Shown one piece after another: positions 12,960-61,048 of a stretch of DNA of 64,000 nucleotides. Source of the stretch: Rhyzopertha dominica (Eukaryota; Arthropoda; Insecta; Coleoptera; Bostrichidae); assembly GCA_025024175.1 (NCBI GenBank), contig QCXZ01000041.1:7435786-7499785 (forward strand). Direction: 5' to 3'. A model generated the notes under the pieces. The model did no database searches. It was given only the letters and a program-made list of their open reading frames with translations, and was not told the origin of the DNA. A program made the position numbers and the translations under genes. Positions within the stretch are counted from its first letter, which is position 1; each line of letters begins with the position of its first letter.

Positions 12960-13505
12960 TAGAAATGCACGTATGTATGTCCAAACCTAACATGACATCT
13001 GGAAAAGTGAAGGCCCTTAAGGATTTAATAGAGATAAATCCATCGTAGAACAGATAAAAGTTTAGCTACAGTAATTTTATATAGAACAGACTATAAGACT
13101 AAAGTTAATGAATTATCAGATGAACAAAAGTTATCCCGAGATCCTACCTACTAATGATCCTGTACGGTTTGTCCAAAATCCATAAAGCTAATGTCCCATT
13201 GTCATATGGCACATAGTCAACGCGATTAGTTGTCGTGGTTACAAATTAGCAAAATTTTGTGCTAACTATTTCAAGTTTTGTGTAGGACGTGAATTCTTTG
13301 TTTATAAGAGTACTCATACCTGAAACGATTGATATTAAATCCACCCAGGTAATACGGTAGCTAAACTATATGAGCACCCATTTCTTATCAGGTTGCGCAA
13401 TAGGTTCACCCTTAAGCTTTGTAGTCACCAATTTTTTTTTAAACTTTGAAGTGGTAGGGTTTAATAGTTTTCAATTTAAACATAAGTTTCGGTTTAGGTA
13501 TATAT
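12960..13505 (+). pseudogene. Penelope-like element reverse transcriptase, 5' part
   Basis: PLE retroelement RT fragments in several frames. They are a weak DYKTKVNELSDEQKLSRDPT stretch (13087-13150), LYGLSKIHKANVPLSYG (about 13158-13208; PLEs have LPKIHK here), and GSPLSFVVTNFFLNFE (about 13394-13450; the family's GSPLSPVxANxFMExFE motif). These lead into NSFQFKHKFRFRY (13460-13501). That last phrase precedes the catalytic DDT in PLE RTs. The frame is then interrupted by a LINE, and the continuation is found at 14909. Stops and shifts make it inactive. Confidence 0.8.
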
Positions 13506-14539
13506 TTTATATATTTGATAATTATTTTCATCAACGTAAACAGAAAGTTAGAGTGGGGGACAATTACTCGAATGCCGGAGTTGTTGTTAGTGGAGTGCCA
13601 TAGGGGTCAATTCTGGGGACTATTACGTTCCTTATTTACAGCTCTGTGCTTGTTTCCAGCATTAAGTATGGACAATGCCATATGTATGCCGATGACACCC
13701 AGTTGTATTACACGTTTAAAGTTGACGAGATTGACTCAATGTTATCAAAAATTAGTGACGATCTTAATGCATTCTCCAAAGCGGCCACCGAACATGGCTT
13801 GGTGATAAACCCCAGTAAATCTAAACTTTTATTATTCGGCAGGGAGCACGATAGTAATTTGCGATCTTATATAATTAGTAAGACAGACCTTGCTATTGAT
13901 AATTGTCGGCTGCAATTTTGTGATAGTGCTCGAAACCTGGGGGTTATTTTTGACACAAAATTAAATTTTACTGAACATGTCTCCATACTTATGCAGAAAG
14001 CCTTTTCGAATCTGAGAATTTTATATAATTCTAGAAAGCTTTTGAATTATAATACTAAAGTACAGCTCTGTGAGTTATTTGTCCTTTCCCACTTTAACTA
14101 TGCATCAGGCGTGTATGGTACTGGTACATCCAGACTGCTGAGCAGGAGGATACAGCTGATGCAGAATTGCTGTCTCGGACTGATCTTCGGAGTCCGCAGG
14201 CGACAGCCAATCTCACATAAGCTGGGGGTGCTGCCATGGCTGAACATGGAATCGCGTCGCTATTTGCACTCTGCTGTATTGTATTATGTTATTATAAACA
14301 CTAAAACCCCTCCATATCTTTACAATAAAATTACATTTAGGACGGATGTACACAACATAAATATTCGTCGCAAGGATTTGCTTTCTGTTCCTAGACATAA
14401 ACATACATATTACCGAAAGTCTTTTTCATATGATGTTTGTCGTGTGTACAATTCCGTTCCACTACATAAGAAATCCCTCTCCACTGCCTCTAGTTTTAAA
14501 ACGTCTTTGCGCAAGTTTTTGATGACTAATAATGTTTAA
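13505..14539 (+). pseudogene. LINE reverse transcriptase C-terminal half, one nonsense codon
   Basis: A single frame runs from 13505 to the TAA at 14537-14539, broken only by TAG at 13601-13603. That codon replaces the Q of the VPQGSILG motif. After it come the catalytic box YADDTQLYY (about 13688-13712, both Asp present), a NPSKSKLLLFG stretch, LGVIFDTKLNFTEHV, SHFNYASGVYG and the typical C-terminal tail up to the stop. The endonuclease and the RT fingers are missing. It is among the best preserved coding sequences in the window, hence a fairly young insertion, yet 5'-truncated and unable to move itself. Confidence 0.9.

Positions 14540-14851: not shown

Positions 14852-14910
<59 letters not shown>
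14540..14910 (+). repeat. LINE 3' UTR and (ATT)n tail
   Basis: About 300 bases of untranslated sequence, AATAAA at 14844, then about 18 ATT/TTA triplets ending at 14910. The LINE at 41560-43150 also ends in AATAAA followed by TTATTATTAT, which suggests related families. Confidence 0.85.
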
Positions 14911-14915
<5 letters not shown>

Positions 14916-15240
14916 GACACTTTTGTCATTCGACCCCATTAAACGCTAGAGTTACCTTTCTTGGTTATCCAAATTTAAAAGAAAACAATGGTCAATTAGT
15001 TCATGAAGTTTGCAGAAAACCAACACGCAAAGACAGATATTTACATGTCACCCTTCTACACAAAAATATAGTCTTATAAGCACGTTATTTGTTATAACTA
15101 GATGCATTTCAAACGAAAGATTATTGCAGAGATTTTCTGGAGAGTTTCTTGTATTAGTTATTAGTCTGGTAAAGTATTGATGTCTAACGTCTGTACTGAA
15201 TTTTTATTGATGTATAATGTAGCTAGAATTACGCTCACCT
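14909..15240 (+). pseudogene. Penelope-like element RT, 3' continuation
   Basis: Immediately after the LINE tail the frame reads YDTFVIRPH (14913-14939), the catalytic DDTFVIW box of PLE RTs with the first Asp degraded. It continues with ITFLGYPNLKENNGQLVHEV and VCRKPTRKDRYLH (15008-15049). PLEs have FLDV and YRKPTHTDRYLH at these places. The match then fades towards 15240. The C-terminal GIY-YIG endonuclease is not visible here. Confidence 0.8.
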
Positions 15241-15661: not shown

Positions 15662-15772
15662 TACAGGTCCCTTCCTTTAGGACGTAGTACCCATTAAGGT
15701 AGCTAGGTGGCTTTGTCATCATGTCAGTGTAATGGTGACAGATGGCATTGCCATCTAATGTTCTACTAACAT
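15662..15772. repeat. Dispersed repeat family R1, longer copy
   Basis: Aligns over about 110 bases at roughly 90% with 36718-36828: shared blocks CTTCCTTTAGGA(A/C)GTAGTACC, GCTAGGTGGCTTTGTCATC and GACAGATGGCATTGCCATCT. A word near TAGCTAGGTGGC resembles a tRNA-type A box, but no B box was found, so a SINE origin is only a possibility. A 92-codon minus-strand frame over it is probably fortuitous. Confidence 0.8.
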
Positions 15773-17025
15773 CATACCAAGCCTTTGGTTTATAGGCAAA
15801 ACCAGTTCTGTGCCGTGCTGTCTGCACTAGACCTAAGCTACACTGACGAGCTGTAACAACAGCGAAACAGATCTGTCCGAAGTTGATTGCGGTGTACACA
15901 GCATTTTAATTTTATTATTATTTTTATTTTTAATTTTTATTAAAAAGAGTGATAATTTTATTCAAGGTTATATTGGTAACGCGGTCTGGACGAGTTAGGT
16001 GCGTCACTTTTTTTAAACTGACTGTATTTCAACGCTTACGCTATCCCGTTAAACGTCCAAGAACTCTCTTCGTTTGCCTTTTAGAAACTTAAAACAAATT
16101 TAAGTTTTGTCCTCCGCAATACATTTCATTTATAGATATAGAAAGGTACGAAGGTACCTGGGATAGCCAAAAAAATCTTCCAGCAACAACATTGTTTCAA
16201 AAAACCGTGTACGTTGTCGTTTGTCCCACATGCGATCAGTTCCTAAACCCGTGCGCCACTGAGTCCAGAGTATCCGATGCATAGGGCGCCATAAAAATAT
16301 TTTATGCGTATCAGGAAACTGTAAATCGCTATGTCCAATATCGCAAATTTTTCAACTGCAGTATAGCAAGTACTTGACCATTTTATGGTCGAAGTTCCCC
16401 AGCGGAGAACGCGGAACGGCATCGTCGATTGCATGAATTTTAAGCGGCGGCGTTTTTATGCAAAAGGATTTTCTCTAGAAAGCGGCCGATTGCTTATTCA
16501 TAACGCGCATTCGATTTGCGATTGTGATCAAACGTGCTGTTAATCGAATGCTGGAAAGTCCGCATTCTTTACGTTATTTAGCACCGACTGCTTATAATAT
16601 TTCCATCAAATGGTCAATACTTCCATCAGGTGGCTTTGCGCGTTTGTTAATGAGAGGGAAATATTCACTTGCTCGAGGGGGTCGTTCCAGAATTGCTGGA
16701 GACACGTTACACTGAAAGTTCTTGCTTTCGAAAACATTATGTATCTAATGTGATCCGGTTAGGTGTTGAAGTAGGTACGTTGCCGTAAAAAGCCAATGTT
16801 TTTAAATAAAGCACGGCATTAACTATGCTTTTTCTGTTTAAGTTCACAAGACATTTCAAGGATGCTCCTATTTAGCGACTCTCCATCAAATGGATTTTTA
16901 GCTCCCTGTGCTCTGATGGTTTGTTTTCTGGGATAAAGGTTTGATTGTGAAAATAGGGTCTTGTGTCTAATCCATTTTTAATCTACCTAAAGGTTTAGGT
17001 TACAAAAAACAACACTTACCTTCTA

Positions 17026-19210: not shown

Positions 19211-19690
19211 TATTTCTTCAGCATATCTTTTTTATTTCCTTCTTTCAGCCATATTCTAATACAACCACAAACATTCCTAGCATAAGAAAATACGGCCATG
19301 ATATATATGATTTTAGAAGTTTGAGGAAATATTTAGCGTATGGAGAAAGCACTAGACATTTTTATGAACAGGTCTTTCCCATCGGTCATCATGACATGAG
19401 AGTGAGAAGTCTTCGGAATGGTAATAAGAAAACCATTCGATGGTCAACGTCGAGGGCAATTTATCTCCAATTTAAGAAAGATTTATTAAACGGTTGGATC
19501 GCCTTTTTACTATGCAAGAAACATGGATCCAGTATTAGGATCTTCAGAATAAAGATCATAAAATAATTCTGCTCCACCATCTGAAAAATTTCAGGTTCAA
19601 AAATCGGCGACTTTGTTCGCTTCTCTGAAAAAATATTTTCTACGTTATTTGGGACAGACTGGAATCACCTACTAGGATATATTATATGCA

Positions 19691-19918
19691 ATAAATCATC
19701 TGCCCTGGTCAGTTCGCTCTCACCCTGCGACTTGTTTCGCCCTGTTCGGGCTCATCAGACAAGGGTAGAGAGCAAACTGATCATGGCAGACCCTTGCATC
19801 GCCTATAACCGCAGCGAGCAGACTGGTTCAAGTGAGAATAGGATGACAGTTATAGACTGCCTAGCTCGCAGAGTTTCGTTTAGATGGTACTGGTGGCATC
19901 TGCCCTCCTATTCTCACT
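19691..19918 (-). mobile_element. 228-bp hammerhead-bearing insertion with 13-bp TSD
   Basis: The perfect 13-mer TATATTATATGCA stands at 19678-19690 and again at 19919-19931, exactly enclosing a GC-richer 228-bp segment. Read on the minus strand, the segment contains a complete hammerhead ribozyme near its 3' end, and the word GGGCAGATG near both ends (complement at 19697-19705 and 19898-19906). Its start (AGTGAGAATAGGA then GGGCAGATG) resembles the sequence just after the ribozyme cleavage site (GGTGAGAGCGAACTGACCA then GGGCAGATG). It therefore looks like slightly more than one monomer of a tandem unit. A 14-bp inverted repeat (AAGTGAGAATAGGA, 19830-19843, and its complement near 19906-19919) closes the 5' part. 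No protein is encoded. The long TSD suggests insertion by a retroelement machinery. Retrozyme or PLE-derived non-autonomous element is the best guess. Confidence 0.8.
19711..19778 (-). ncRNA. Type I hammerhead ribozyme
   Basis: Minus-strand RNA order: stem I 5' strand (19778-19759), core CUGAUGA (19758-19752), stem II GCCC-GAACA-GGGC (19751-19739), core GAA with A15.1 (19738-19735), then C, AA, GU and C17 (19734-19729). The predicted cleavage is after C17, between 19729 and 19728, followed by the stem I 3' strand (19728-19710). Stem I closes with about 12 outer pairs (CAGUU-GCUCUC against GAGAGC-GAACUG, one G-U pair) plus inner ACCC/GGGU pairing, with single-base bulges. Stem III is a minimal 2-bp helix with an AA loop, as in PLE and retrozyme hammerheads. 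All invariant core bases are present, so it is likely catalytic or very recently so. Confidence 0.88.
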
Positions 19919-19931
19919 TATATTATATGCA

Positions 19932-34234: not shown

Positions 34235-35487
34235 CAGACTGTTTGACGAATGATAGTGAGCCTGACGAAATTAAAAATGTAATCCAAAATACATTCTCAT
34301 AGCCAAAAAACAGATATGATTTTGATTTATGGTGAATGCAAGAAAAATGCTTCCGCTGCTGCCCGTTTATATACAGACAACGTTTTCCAAATAGAAGAGC
34401 TCCTGCGGATACAATTTTCAAGAGACTTGAATTAACTTTAAGGACAAACTGGCCACCACTGAAAAAGTCAAGAGAAAGAACAGCAACAGGCCCTGACAAT
34501 GAAATGAGAGTATTGGAAATGATTCACGAAAATCCTCATATTAGTCAAAGGGTAGTCCCAAGAGCAACCGGTATTAGTCTGTCTTCAGTACACCGAATAA
34601 CTAAAGGCAATCAATTTCATCCGTATCACTTGCAATTCGTTCAGGCCTTAAAGAATACAGATTATCCTAAAAGACTGGCTTTTTGTAACTTTTTTCGGGA
34701 ACACCAAAATTTGAATGTGAGATTTTATGACATTTGCTTCTCAGATGAGGCAAGATGTTCTAATAATGGTGGAGTTAACAAACATAACATGTATTATTAT
34801 GCGCAAGAAAATCCACGTTGGATTCGAGAAGGACATTTTCAAACTATCTACTCGACNAATGTCTGGTGCGGAATATTGGGGAATCAAATTGTTGGGCGTT
34901 ATTTTTTTCGCGATACTTATCTAAATTTTTTAAGACACATTCTACCGGTACTTCTCCAGAATGTAAATTTACAAGTAAGACAAGATCTATGGTTCCAACA
35001 AGATGGGGCACCTGCGCATTATCATACAATAGTGCGAAATCATTTTGATTAATCCTTGGCCACCGAGAAGCCCGGATCTTACTCCTTTGGATTTTTTCTG
35101 TGGCGAATGGTAAAAGAGCAAGTATATCAAACACCAAATGAAAGTGTAGAATATTTAGAGAATAAAATACGTGATGCATGTAGATCCATCACTCCAGAAA
35201 TGTTAATGCATGTTAAAAGATCGTTTTGGGCACGAATTCAAGCTTGTGAAAACAGCGGAGGGAGACATTTTGAGCATTTGTTACATTAATGTTATTGAAT
35301 AAACATTTTTCAGAAATTAAATTTGTTTTACAGTACCGAATTTACTTAAAGCAAATGATTGAAATTTATGTCAAAATTGACGAATTGATACAGCTCTCTA
35401 CGTTTTATATTTTTTAAGACGATGATAATGTATTTTGGGTTGCTTTTTTAATTTCGTCGGGATCATTATGATTGGTGAAACATCCTT
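34235..35487 (+). mobile_element. IS630-type (DUF4817 group) transposon, nearly complete
   Basis: The ends are inverted copies of about 75 bases: left 34235-34310 with TGACGAAATTAAAAATGTAA and CCAAAATACATTCTCAT, right 35412-35487 as the reverse complement with ATAATGTATTTTGGGTTG and TTTTTAATTTCGTCGGGATC. TATA flanks both sides (34231-34234 and 35488-35491), consistent with TA-targeting. Length is 1,253 bp. It carries one transposase gene with frameshifts, and sits inside a LINE whose protein continues on the other side. Confidence 0.9.
34336..35289 (+). pseudogene. IS630-type transposase with two frameshifts
   Basis: The first frame (34336-35052) has a helix-turn-helix with RRAPADTIFKRLELTLRTN and ENPHISQRVVPRATGISLSS. 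The first catalytic Asp is in CFSDEA (about 34735), followed by NVWCGILGNQIVGRYFF (34858-34908). The second catalytic Asp is in LWFQQDGAPAHYHTIVRNHF (34988-35047). The third, SPDLTPLDFF (about 35068-35097), sits in the next frame, and LWRMVKEQVYQTPNESVEYL to the FEHLLH end (35098-35289) in yet another. All three acids are thus encoded, but two indels (near 35050 and 35097) and a stop break the gene. One N lies at 34857. Product: nuclear cut-and-paste transposase, now dead. Confidence 0.9.
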
Positions 35488-36519: not shown

Positions 36520-36595
36520 TTCATGTCTATGCTGTGATGTCTGCACCTCAACCAACTGCAGATAGATCTATTTCGCTGTCATTACAGCTCATCAG
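36520..36595. repeat. Dispersed repeat family R2, copy 1
   Basis: ATGTCTATGCTGTGATGTCT and ACTGCAGATAGATCTATTTC with GCTGTCATTACA match 60237-60313 in the same orientation, with an 8-base insertion (CCTCAACC duplicated) in the second copy. Function unknown. Confidence 0.75.
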
Positions 36596-36717
36596 TGCAG
36601 TTTAGATTTAGTGCAGACAGCAGGGCATAGAACTGGTTTTCCCTATATACCAAAGCAAGTGCAGTGGGGGGCCTGCTGTCAAATTGAAGTACGCAGTTGC
36701 ATGCCAATTTGCCAGGC

Positions 36718-36830
36718 TACAGGTCACTTCCTTTAGGAAGTAGTACCCGTTAAGGCAGCTAGGTGGCTTTGTCATCGTGTCAGTGTAATGCTGACAGATG
36801 GCATTGCCATCTAAATTCTTACGTATTCAC
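36718..36830. repeat. Dispersed repeat family R1, third copy
   Basis: About 110 bases matching 15662-15772 at roughly 90%. A 147-codon plus frame begins inside it (36798-37241) but shows no known domain. Confidence 0.8.
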
Positions 36831-43969: not shown

Positions 43970-44700
43970 ATTAATTCTTATATACGATTCGCTCTGTACC
44001 GATTTTCAAAGTCCAGTACATGCCGCACTGAATTTCTCCATGCATCGACACTTGTTATTTCAGCTTCGTGTCTAATTTTTAGCAGCATTTCATTGCTAAA
44101 TTTTCCACCGGTGTTCCCTCGTCGAATTCTTTGTTTCAGCTGCCTCCATATCATTTCAATAGGGTTGAAAATGCAATGATATGGGGGTAATCGTAGAATG
44201 GTGTGTCCACATTCAGAAGCGAGAATGTCAATTTTAAATTTCTTCGAAAAAATTTTTTGTGCCAAGCACTTCCAACAATTGTTTTCTTGTGTAGTCCTCT
44301 TCGAAATATAAATCTTCTTTTCTTAGAAACTCTTGAATGGTTTTTTATATAACAGGACGATTGCTGGAATAACATTATTCTTGTACATATTGAGGTTATG
44401 TTCACGTCCAAAGAATTATAACACAATAACTAACAATAACGGGGAATGGACATCCCAATGTCCATTCCCCGTTATTGTTAGTTATTGTATTATTCTTGTA
44501 CATTTCATAAATGTTTCTTCTAATAAGATCCGCGTGAGTTGCAGTAAATTTTTTAAAGCTGCCCTTGTCGGATCTTATCTTTCTCTTTGAAGGCCCGGAT
44601 TTAACAATTCTCCAGATGGTTGATCGTGGAGTTCCAGTCACTTCTGCCGTTTTATCTAAAGGTTGCTTCTCGCTATCACATTCCAATAATAATACCAAAT
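43970..44700 (-). pseudogene. DD34E Tc1/IS630-type transposase, internally deleted
   Basis: The N-terminal part on the minus strand (44698-44490) reads LECDSEKQPLDKTAEVTGTP then RSTIWRIVKSGPSKRKIRSD, a helix-turn-helix, and ends at ADLIRRNIYEMYKNN. The middle is replaced by a hairpin (44423-44488). Another piece, VSKKRRFIFRRGLHKKTIVG (about 44330-44270), and the C-terminus (44265-43978) FKIDILASECGHTILRLPPY then HCIFNPIEMIWRQLKQRI follow. The third catalytic residue, Glu in NPIEMIW, is kept. The first two acids are lost in the deletion. TIRs not identified. Confidence 0.78.
44423..44488. repeat. Perfect 31-bp hairpin with 4-nt loop
   Basis: Arms 44423-44453 and 44458-44488 are exact reverse complements (core ACAATAACTAACAATAACGG ... 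), with loop CCCA. The 15-mer ATTATTCTTGTACAT occurs just after the right arm (44489-44503) and also before the left arm (44374-44388). It is not a terminator in this genome type. It looks like a local rearrangement scar inside the transposase relic. Confidence 0.97.
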
Positions 44701-53535: not shown

Positions 53536-53627
53536 TTTTTTTCATATTGGAAAGAAAATGTTTGTTGAGTTTTCCTGGTAATATATATTAGTACTCAACA
53601 AACATTTTCTTTCCAATATGAAAAAAA
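53536..53627. repeat. Perfect 35-bp inverted repeat with 22-bp loop
   Basis: Left arm 53536-53570 (TTTTTTTCATATTGGAAAGA ... GTTGAGT) and right arm 53593-53627 are exact reverse complements. No mismatch over 35 bases is unexpected in such decayed DNA, so it arose recently or is under conversion. No coding sequence or TSD seen. Confidence 0.97.
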
Positions 53628-59100: not shown

Positions 59101-60236
59101 TCACATGAACGAAATCATTTAACCGCAAACTAACGCTATCTACAAAATTCTAAAAAAAAATACAAGAAATGTACTAAAAAGATCGGCCATTAACGCAATA
59201 CGTCTGTATCTAAAATGAGCAATTAAGAATATGTGTTTAAACAATACCAAAACAAGAGTGAGGTATGAAGATCTAACAATAATAATAAATGCGAAAACAA
59301 ATAAACTGCTGTAACCGCCAATAATTATTTAATGAAAGCAATAGAACGGTTACATAAGGAAGAATAATACTAGAATTGAAAATGGCTACTAGTTGAAAAT
59401 GCGTTTGTAATTGATAAAATCTAGTGCATTTTTACATTTGAATTTCTTGTACAGTGGTACAGTCACTGAAGACATTACAGTACCCCAATAGTCCGCCATT
59501 TTAGGGCAAAACAGCGGCGGGAAGTTTATGTTTATAAAGGAGATGAGAGAGGGAACCAAACTATCAAACCTAATCTTAAAGATTAGAGAACTGTCAGATA
59601 TCAGGGTCTGATGTAGTGTGATTTGAGCAACCAAACATTGCCGGCTCTAAGTAGGTATAGTTCTGATTGTAGCTGCATCACGTTTGGTTGTTTGTATCTA
59701 CTTTTTTTACCGTAAAATTTCAATATTAGCGGAGTATTCGGTCAATAATCGGCGTTCTTCGTAAAGTGTTTAAACCTGTTGCATAATGTTGAATTTTTTG
59801 AGCATATTTCCTACAAAAAGACGTTTTTTATGTCGTCTGGGCGTCTAAGCTCAAAATTGTAGGAGAGGAATGAGCAAGAGCAACGTTTTCTACGTTTATT
59901 ATAAAGCTTACACTGCAAATAGCTTACTCTTACGTGCGTTAAATATTAAATATGTTATATATTTAGTTACCTACTACATGGGAAATGTTGTGAATATATA
60001 TAGGTAAAGTTTCCTCTAAATATCATTATTCTAAACGTGGGTACTGTTACATACAGAAACCTATAATGGCCGCTCATTAAAAAGAACGGGTCAAACACAC
60101 CAGACACCACGGTTTTCTCTTTCTAACGCGAATAAATTAGTTCGTATAATTTGCTGCACATTCACGTTTGGTCCACTTCTCCACTTGATGTATTGGTCGA
60201 TTATTGCACTGACGAAAACAACATTCTATATTAAAA

Positions 60237-60313
60237 TGTATGTCTATCCTGTGCTGTCTACACCTCAACCCCTCAACCAAACTGCAGATAGTATTATTTC
60301 GCTGTCATTACAC
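60237..60313. repeat. Dispersed repeat family R2, copy 2
   Basis: Matches 36520-36595 in direct orientation over about 70 aligned bases (CTGCAGATAG, ATTTCGCTGTCATTACA), with a small CCTCAACC duplication. Confidence 0.75.
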
Positions 60314-61048
60314 CTATTACGGGTAGCGCTGACCGCTGATTGTGCAAAACCGTTTATAAATCGCGGAATACCCTGTGGATAAACTCAACGTCAGTGCAAA
60401 TTGCAAACAAAGCTCGTTTGACAACACAATACACAAGTGACAGTCGTGACAGTACTTGACCCATTTTTATGAACGTCCGTTATATTATGAACGGAAAAAG
60501 AATCTTTTGTAAAAATGCAGCTATTGAAAAACATAGAAAAACTAATGCGGGAATAATCAAGAAAAACTTACATTATCGCCGCCTTCATCCGTGGGTCATA
60601 ACAATGCGGTCACTCCGGTGGACAGACAAGGCGGTTTCACATACGCGCGGGAGATGCAAAAACAAAACATAAGTTACTCATCCGTTAAACTCAAAAAGAT
60701 ACAGTTAAGACTCACAGAGGGGTTTTCACCCCAGGGCATCATCCTTATACTGTCCATGGCTTCATCCCTGAGATTACATCATTAGTCAATGGTGGTTATG
60801 AATACCTTGTTAGTTTTCTCTCTTCAACAACTAGCTAGTGTCAACCTGAAATAGTAGAGGCTTCCCCGAACGCTCACCCTAAGGCCTATAGGGTCGCATT
60901 CCAATAGCCCGGATCGGGGGCACCTAATAAGGCTACCCTCTCCACCAGAACTATGTCATTCGAGATATCCTGCATTACCCCCCGGAATGCAAGTCCTCCA
61001 CTCGAAGGAACCACAGCTGTTAACCGAGCACTCTGCTCTAGGGGTTTC

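Follow-up and report, generated by a model that had tools for sequence, protein, structure and literature searches.

How was a short piece of DNA that carries a self-cleaving ribozyme, and is too small to code for a reverse transcriptase, inserted into a beetle chromosome, and which enzyme inserted it? The question was raised by a 228-bp segment in the window, by which we mean the whole stretch of 64,000 nucleotides of Rhyzopertha dominica DNA analyzed here. The segment (19691-19918) is flanked by exact 13-mers, TATATTATATGCA. A local 13-mer repeat appeared in only 7 of 2000 dinucleotide shuffles of the sequence. The features are as follows.

19678..19690, unstranded: target site duplication (TSD), left copy, 13 bp, exact 13-mer
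19919..19931, unstranded: target site duplication, right copy, 13 bp, exact 13-mer
19706..19777, minus strand: type I hammerhead ribozyme, predicted cut 19729/19728 (from Rfam, descriptor and family copies)

The hammerhead consists of CUGAUGA (19758-19752), stem II GCCC/GGGC and GAAAC-AA-GUC, and the cut is predicted between 19729 and 19728 of the minus strand. The initial annotation had placed a minus-strand type I hammerhead within an insert of 228 bp bounded by a perfect TSD of 13 bp; coordinates, descriptor and TSD all agree with this. The covariance scan that it proposed did place the Rfam family HH9 on the ribozyme, at 29.8 bits (E 1.3e-5 over 401 bases, 0.0021 over the window), but this is below that family's gathering score of 52, and in the Rfam scan of the window no family attained its own gathering score. 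The hammerhead call therefore rests on the core, the stems and the other copies. A type I hammerhead descriptor found two matches in the window, compared with none in 100 shuffled windows. The GC content was 51% in the insert against 38% in the flanks, and the fold z-score was -5.6 in the insert against 0.4 and -0.5 in two flank stretches.

Copies in the genome and the 276-nt unit

The genome of the window (479 Mb, 138 contigs) was searched for relatives of the insert. The search gave 866 candidates, and the best 40 places, when scored, yielded 159 matches. Thirty-nine further loci were fetched; with L039 left out and the window copy (L001) added, 39 loci were counted. L039 was left out because its insertion and TSD are those of L038 in the opposite orientation; the two loci (C47), separated by about 26 kb, represent an inverted segmental duplication.

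Other copies and dimeric copies both exist, and the multimeric copies anticipated by the initial annotation were found elsewhere in the genome. Head-to-tail arrays, among them one of seven units at L019, gave a unit, U, of 276 nt, which we numbered from the ribozyme cut. A unit of about 200 nt with a terminal overlap, as first proposed, was given up in view of the 276-nt arrays and of the insert ends, which match ungapped at only 15 of 22 positions. The hammerhead core was kept by pattern in 56 of 76 copies in the fetched loci. Stem III in the family form is ACTAGT, with one A-U pair and a palindromic CUAG loop, and the window copy has ACAAGT; a 2-bp stem III, as annotated, would need a 2-nt loop and is sterically doubtful. 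The GC content of U was 55%, compared with 51% in the insert, and its circular fold was 66% paired (z -8.1).

We compared these properties with those of known classes. Metazoan non-LTR retrozymes have type I hammerheads in repeats of 150-450 bp, and the unit here is 276 nt. They are multicopy with tandem copies, as here (at least 159 matches; the L019 array); their TSDs exceed 4 bp, as in 27 of 39 loci here, mostly with 12-13 bp; and their RNA is strongly self-paired, as is U. The GC content of 55% (unit) and 51% (insert) lies above the value of less than 50% given for the class, which is a description and not a strict criterion. In the accessible parts of PMC7229834 and PMC4918200, the animal elements are likewise small non-coding type I hammerhead units with tandem copies, a weak stem III with a palindromic loop, TSDs of more than 4 bp and strong self-pairing, and 15-bp TSDs are reported in Nematostella. 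The part of PMC7229834 available to us describes tandem arrays and, unlike our loci, does not mention opposite-orientation inserts with two fixed start sites.

Neither insert nor unit encodes a reverse transcriptase with a GIY-YIG endonuclease. At 228 bp and 276 nt they are too small for these. The element looks like one mobilized by a Penelope-like element (PLE) and is not itself a PLE. No tRNA was found in the window by ARAGORN that would indicate a tRNA-derived SINE, and 7SL and 5S heads were covered by Rfam only. Exact hammerhead patterns gave 0 matches each against viral_contigs.

Two halves in opposite orientation with two fixed outer ends

Aligned to U, the window copy runs antisense from U315 to U161 and then sense from U109 to U176. 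The insert is thus less than one unit with its distal part inverted, not slightly more than one unit as first read.

19691..19849, minus strand (sense strand): A-primed half, U161 to U38 through the ribozyme cut (L001 1511-1670 minus, aligned to U161-315; end set by the TSD)
19848..19918, plus strand: B-primed half, U109-176, in opposite orientation (L001 1669-1736 plus; alignment to U, end set by the TSD)
19691..19705, minus strand: putative reverse transcription start site A, sense GGGCAGATGATTTAT (outer-end clustering, fold of U)
19900..19918, plus strand: putative reverse transcription start site B, sense CTGCCCTCCTATTCTCACT (outer-end clustering, fold of U)

The same layout was found throughout the family. 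Among the 39 loci, 29 were antisense-then-sense, none had the reverse order, and 10 had a single orientation (6 sense only, 4 antisense only). In the two-sided loci the RNA 5ʹ sides meet at the internal junction, with the 3ʹ sides pointing out toward the target DNA. Each of the two families analyzed here was searched with a two-sided query, and scoring was limited to the best 40 places; the two-sided share is therefore overestimated, while the absence of the reverse order is less exposed to this bias.

Outer ends cluster at site A, ...CAGGGCAGATNATTTATT(TAA), U36-47, and site B, ...CTGCCCTCCTATTCTC(CTTTAA), U168-186. One A end and one B end were present in 25 of the 29 two-sided loci, with A on the left in 12 and B in 13; the B end of L042 was assigned by eye. 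Of the four exceptions, L011 has ends at A and U53, and L028, L035 and L036 each combine A with a stop at some other position. L034 is one-sided by BLAST, and a tiny A end is visible by eye. In the circular fold A (near U42) and B (near U182) are both unpaired, and a GC-rich helix immediately precedes each of them. A search by alignment for a sequence common to A and B did not exceed chance expectation (85 of 1000 shuffles); TTTAA, which the two share, was noted by eye only.

The two start sites also account for the repeated motif of the insert. CATCTGCCCT is present twice, 200 bp apart (201 in the initial annotation), and recurred in 84 of 5000 shuffles at any distance and in 1 of 5000 at 180 bp or more. 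It had been read as terminal redundancy. The recurrence of GGGCAGATG represents the regions of A and B read in opposite directions, with one copy per site and B inverted.

Target site duplications and nick sequence

TSDs were scored at each locus, with a score of 9 or more taken as a pass and flank pairs mixed between loci taken as controls; one boundary was placed by eye in L034 and in L042. The test was passed by 27 of 39 loci and by 5 of 455 mixed pairs. The passing loci were 24 of the 25 with an A and a B end (L022 fails), none of the four other two-sided loci (L011, L028, L035, L036) and three of the ten one-sided loci (L026, L030, L034). L041 passes but says little because it lies within a microsatellite. 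Together with the genome relatives, this supports the initial proposal of a retrozyme-like, hammerhead-bearing family with TSDs and no poly(A) tail; neither poly(A) nor a simple-repeat tail was present at the outer ends.

In 21 loci hand-picked for good TSDs, the nick consensus was TT|GTT, the same at A- and B-primed ends. T was found at +2 in 28 of 42 ends, and both +2 and +3 preferred T on both strands.

Inner ends and the kinship of the two halves

The stop positions of paired halves were unrelated, lying within 10 nt of each other in none of the 29 two-sided loci. The junctions had overlaps in 12 loci, abutted in one and contained filler in 16. Halves longer than one unit were common (25 of 58, maximum 2038 nt), and such read-through of the ribozyme cut suggests a circle or an uncut multimer as the template. 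Three of 26 A-primed cDNAs ended at U1-4 (p 0.006; for both kinds, 3 of 52, p 0.04), a hint, though not proof, that the RNA has its 5ʹ end where the ribozyme cuts. Another three of the 26 (L012, L019, L024) ended at U178-179, which is site B, as though the second cDNA had stopped them.

The median divergence was 2.2% between the opposite halves of a locus and 7.5% between different loci. The halves were closer to each other than to other loci in 15 of 19 loci and not in the other 4; in L033 they were identical throughout. A private variant was present in all three listed hammerhead copies of L045, and another in all four of L011, in both halves. As a test for one RNA per insert, minority variants common to both halves were counted; they numbered only 29 of 380, compared with 208 of 16592 in control pairs, an enrichment, but a small one.

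A second, unrelated family with the same layout

A second hammerhead family, unrelated to the first, has three pieces in the window.

36535..36655, minus strand: hammerhead half of a two-sided copy
36718..36814, plus strand: M half of the same copy, in opposite orientation; TSD not found
15662..15903, plus strand: copy in one orientation, comprising M and a decayed hammerhead
60233..60315, minus strand: fragment with the 3ʹ part of a hammerhead

This family was analyzed after the rule had been seen in the first. The genome search gave 1530 candidates, of which the best 40 places were scored; 39 fetched loci and the window copies at 15.8 and 36.6 kb made 41. Antisense-then-sense order was found in 35, the reverse in none and a single orientation in 6, and all 35 two-sided loci had one hammerhead-side site and one M site as outer ends. 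The TSD test was passed by 26 of 41 loci and 0 of 481 mixed pairs. Among the two-sided loci 24 of 35 passed, the window copy being among the 11 failures, and TSDs sought at the window's copies gave nothing convincing. Two of the six one-sided loci passed (L078, L081). With the three of the first family, they indicate that one-ended insertion occurs too.

At the nick, in 19 loci, T was found at +2 in 32 and at +3 in 27 of 38 ends, with both end kinds; the TT before the nick seen in the first family was not found. The halves turned at nearly the same unit position in 1 of 34 loci. Junctions overlapped in 31 of 34, but inverted repeats within the unit itself have probably raised this count. The hammerheads at 15783-15903 (plus) and 36535-36655 (minus) have ACAGATCTGT and ATAGATCTAT, respectively, as stem III, a two-sided change that preserves the palindrome.

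Penelope-like elements in the same genome

The initial annotation had named a PLE as a possible mobilizer, and many GIY-YIG elements are indeed present in the genome: of 2080 candidates 150 were scored, giving 144 matches over the cut-off and open frames of up to 864 codons. Neighbors less than 6 kb apart formed 21 close pairs, 20 of them minus-then-plus, one minus-minus and none plus-then-minus; farther apart, the orientation was mixed. One minus-then-plus pair, L095, has a 556-codon frame with a GIY-YIG match and RVT_1 over the cut-off, and two 622-bp arms that are 99.8% identical. An exact 15-bp direct repeat, sought at this locus only, encloses the whole pair. About 35 extra nt are present at one end only; by eye they are the start of the L096 reading frame, and they look like the Penelope 'tail'. 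The full 864-codon frame of L096 had no Pfam match at 0.01.

No hammerhead was shown inside the PLE copies L095 and L096, and the hammerhead units shared no sequence match of more than 15 nt with these two loci. A minimal hammerhead-like motif, CTGAGGA...CGAAAC, lies at L095 131 (plus), outside the TSD of the pair.

Proposed two-ended target-primed reverse transcription

We consider it probable that the insert is a non-LTR retrozyme and that it entered the target by two-ended target-primed reverse transcription. The RNA of the unit would be cut by its own hammerhead and probably circularized. An endonuclease favoring T at +2 and +3 would nick the two strands of the target at positions 12-13 bp from each other, so that 3ʹ overhangs remain. 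One target 3ʹ end would prime cDNA at site A, just 3ʹ of ribozyme stem I, and the other, presumably jointly, at site B, which lies roughly halfway round the circle. Each cDNA would proceed toward the RNA 5ʹ side, sometimes for more than one round, and joining of the two cDNA ends would give an antisense-then-sense insert in which the RNA 3ʹ side faces outward at either end. Most likely, the enzyme would be that of a PLE. From a two-strand cutter with both 3ʹ overhangs priming, enclosing TSDs and the same nick motif at A and B ends are expected.

Twin priming by a LINE of the genome, with internal priming on the RNA by the second target strand, is unlikely. L1 twin priming leaves, like these inserts, an inverted distal (5ʹ) segment within one TSD, and a LINE-type reverse transcriptase frame is present in the window at 13604-14539. 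In L1, however, the second priming site is not fixed and the end is poly(A), whereas here both start sites are equally fixed and the inserts end without poly(A) or a simple-repeat tail. The GIY-YIG elements, moreover, pair in the same orientation.

Still less probable is a one-ended insertion from circular or tandem RNA, with the two-sided layout produced by later DNA inversion or recombination. It matches the retrozyme model in the available part of PMC7229834, and one-sided loci with TSDs exist (L026, L030 and L034, with a very small second end or none; L078 and L081 in the second family). Against it, all 64 two-sided loci of the two families are antisense-then-sense and none the reverse, the outer ends lie at fixed sites and the TSDs surround both halves.

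Snap-back self-priming of one cDNA at the junction, on an antisense template, as for head-to-head Penelope pLTRs, was inferred from palindromes at the rotifer PLE inverted junction (PMC3846280, in the portion available). It is very improbable here: the halves should turn at near-equal places in the unit, which they do in 0 of 29 loci of the first family (within 10 nt) and 1 of 34 of the second, and no explanation is given for another fixed outer end whose nick motif matches that of the first.

As far as sequence data go, they favor two-ended priming on sense RNA over self-priming on an antisense template. In the accessible text of PMC3846280, the latter is offered, not as settled, for the inverted pLTRs of rotifer Pen families. 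These families resemble our inserts in having head-to-head inverted repeats within one TSD and an optional tail at one inverted end, and differ in being autonomous and protein-coding. The Anolis Poseidon PLE protein nicked and extended both strands in vitro at an AT-rich nick with TT, from two internal RNA start sites between which its tail lies (PMC11167929). The two Poseidon sites are adjacent with no strand difference reported, whereas each retrozyme insert shows one site on one strand and the other site on the opposite strand.

We lean toward the view that Penelope-type retrotransposition is symmetric, with one complex, both strands cut, and two cDNAs from two start sites on one RNA. If so, inverted inserts and the one-ended Penelope 'tail' would be normal products, and ribozyme circles would be templates with two start sites nearly opposite. 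Within a single genome, the same signature is found in two ribozyme families unrelated to each other and in the GIY-YIG elements. This bears on how PLEs insert and what moves animal retrozymes, questions raised in PMC3846280, PMC7229834 and PMC11167929, as far as their available text shows. Among the papers listed by literature searches of open-licence PMC, none described two-ended, two-site insertion for retrozymes in its title or the beginning of its abstract.

Other traces in the window

A weak trace of PLE reverse transcriptase was found at 13160-13314 (plus) by tblastn with the L096 frame (E 0.004). The peptide at 14927-15076 (plus), which we take to resemble PLE reverse transcriptase, gave nothing in Pfam, NCBIfam or a protein search. 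The LINE-type frame lies between these two weak traces, with (ATT)n at 14853-14911, and had no relative in viral_contigs. In a listing of at least 120 relatives of this frame, the only two with an organism in their names come from beetles, in keeping with an arthropod genome. Long near-perfect palindromes are present at 44409-44497 and 53541-53622, with miRNA-family matches below the gathering scores. A transposase-like frame with an HTH_24 match was observed at 34336-35052 (plus).
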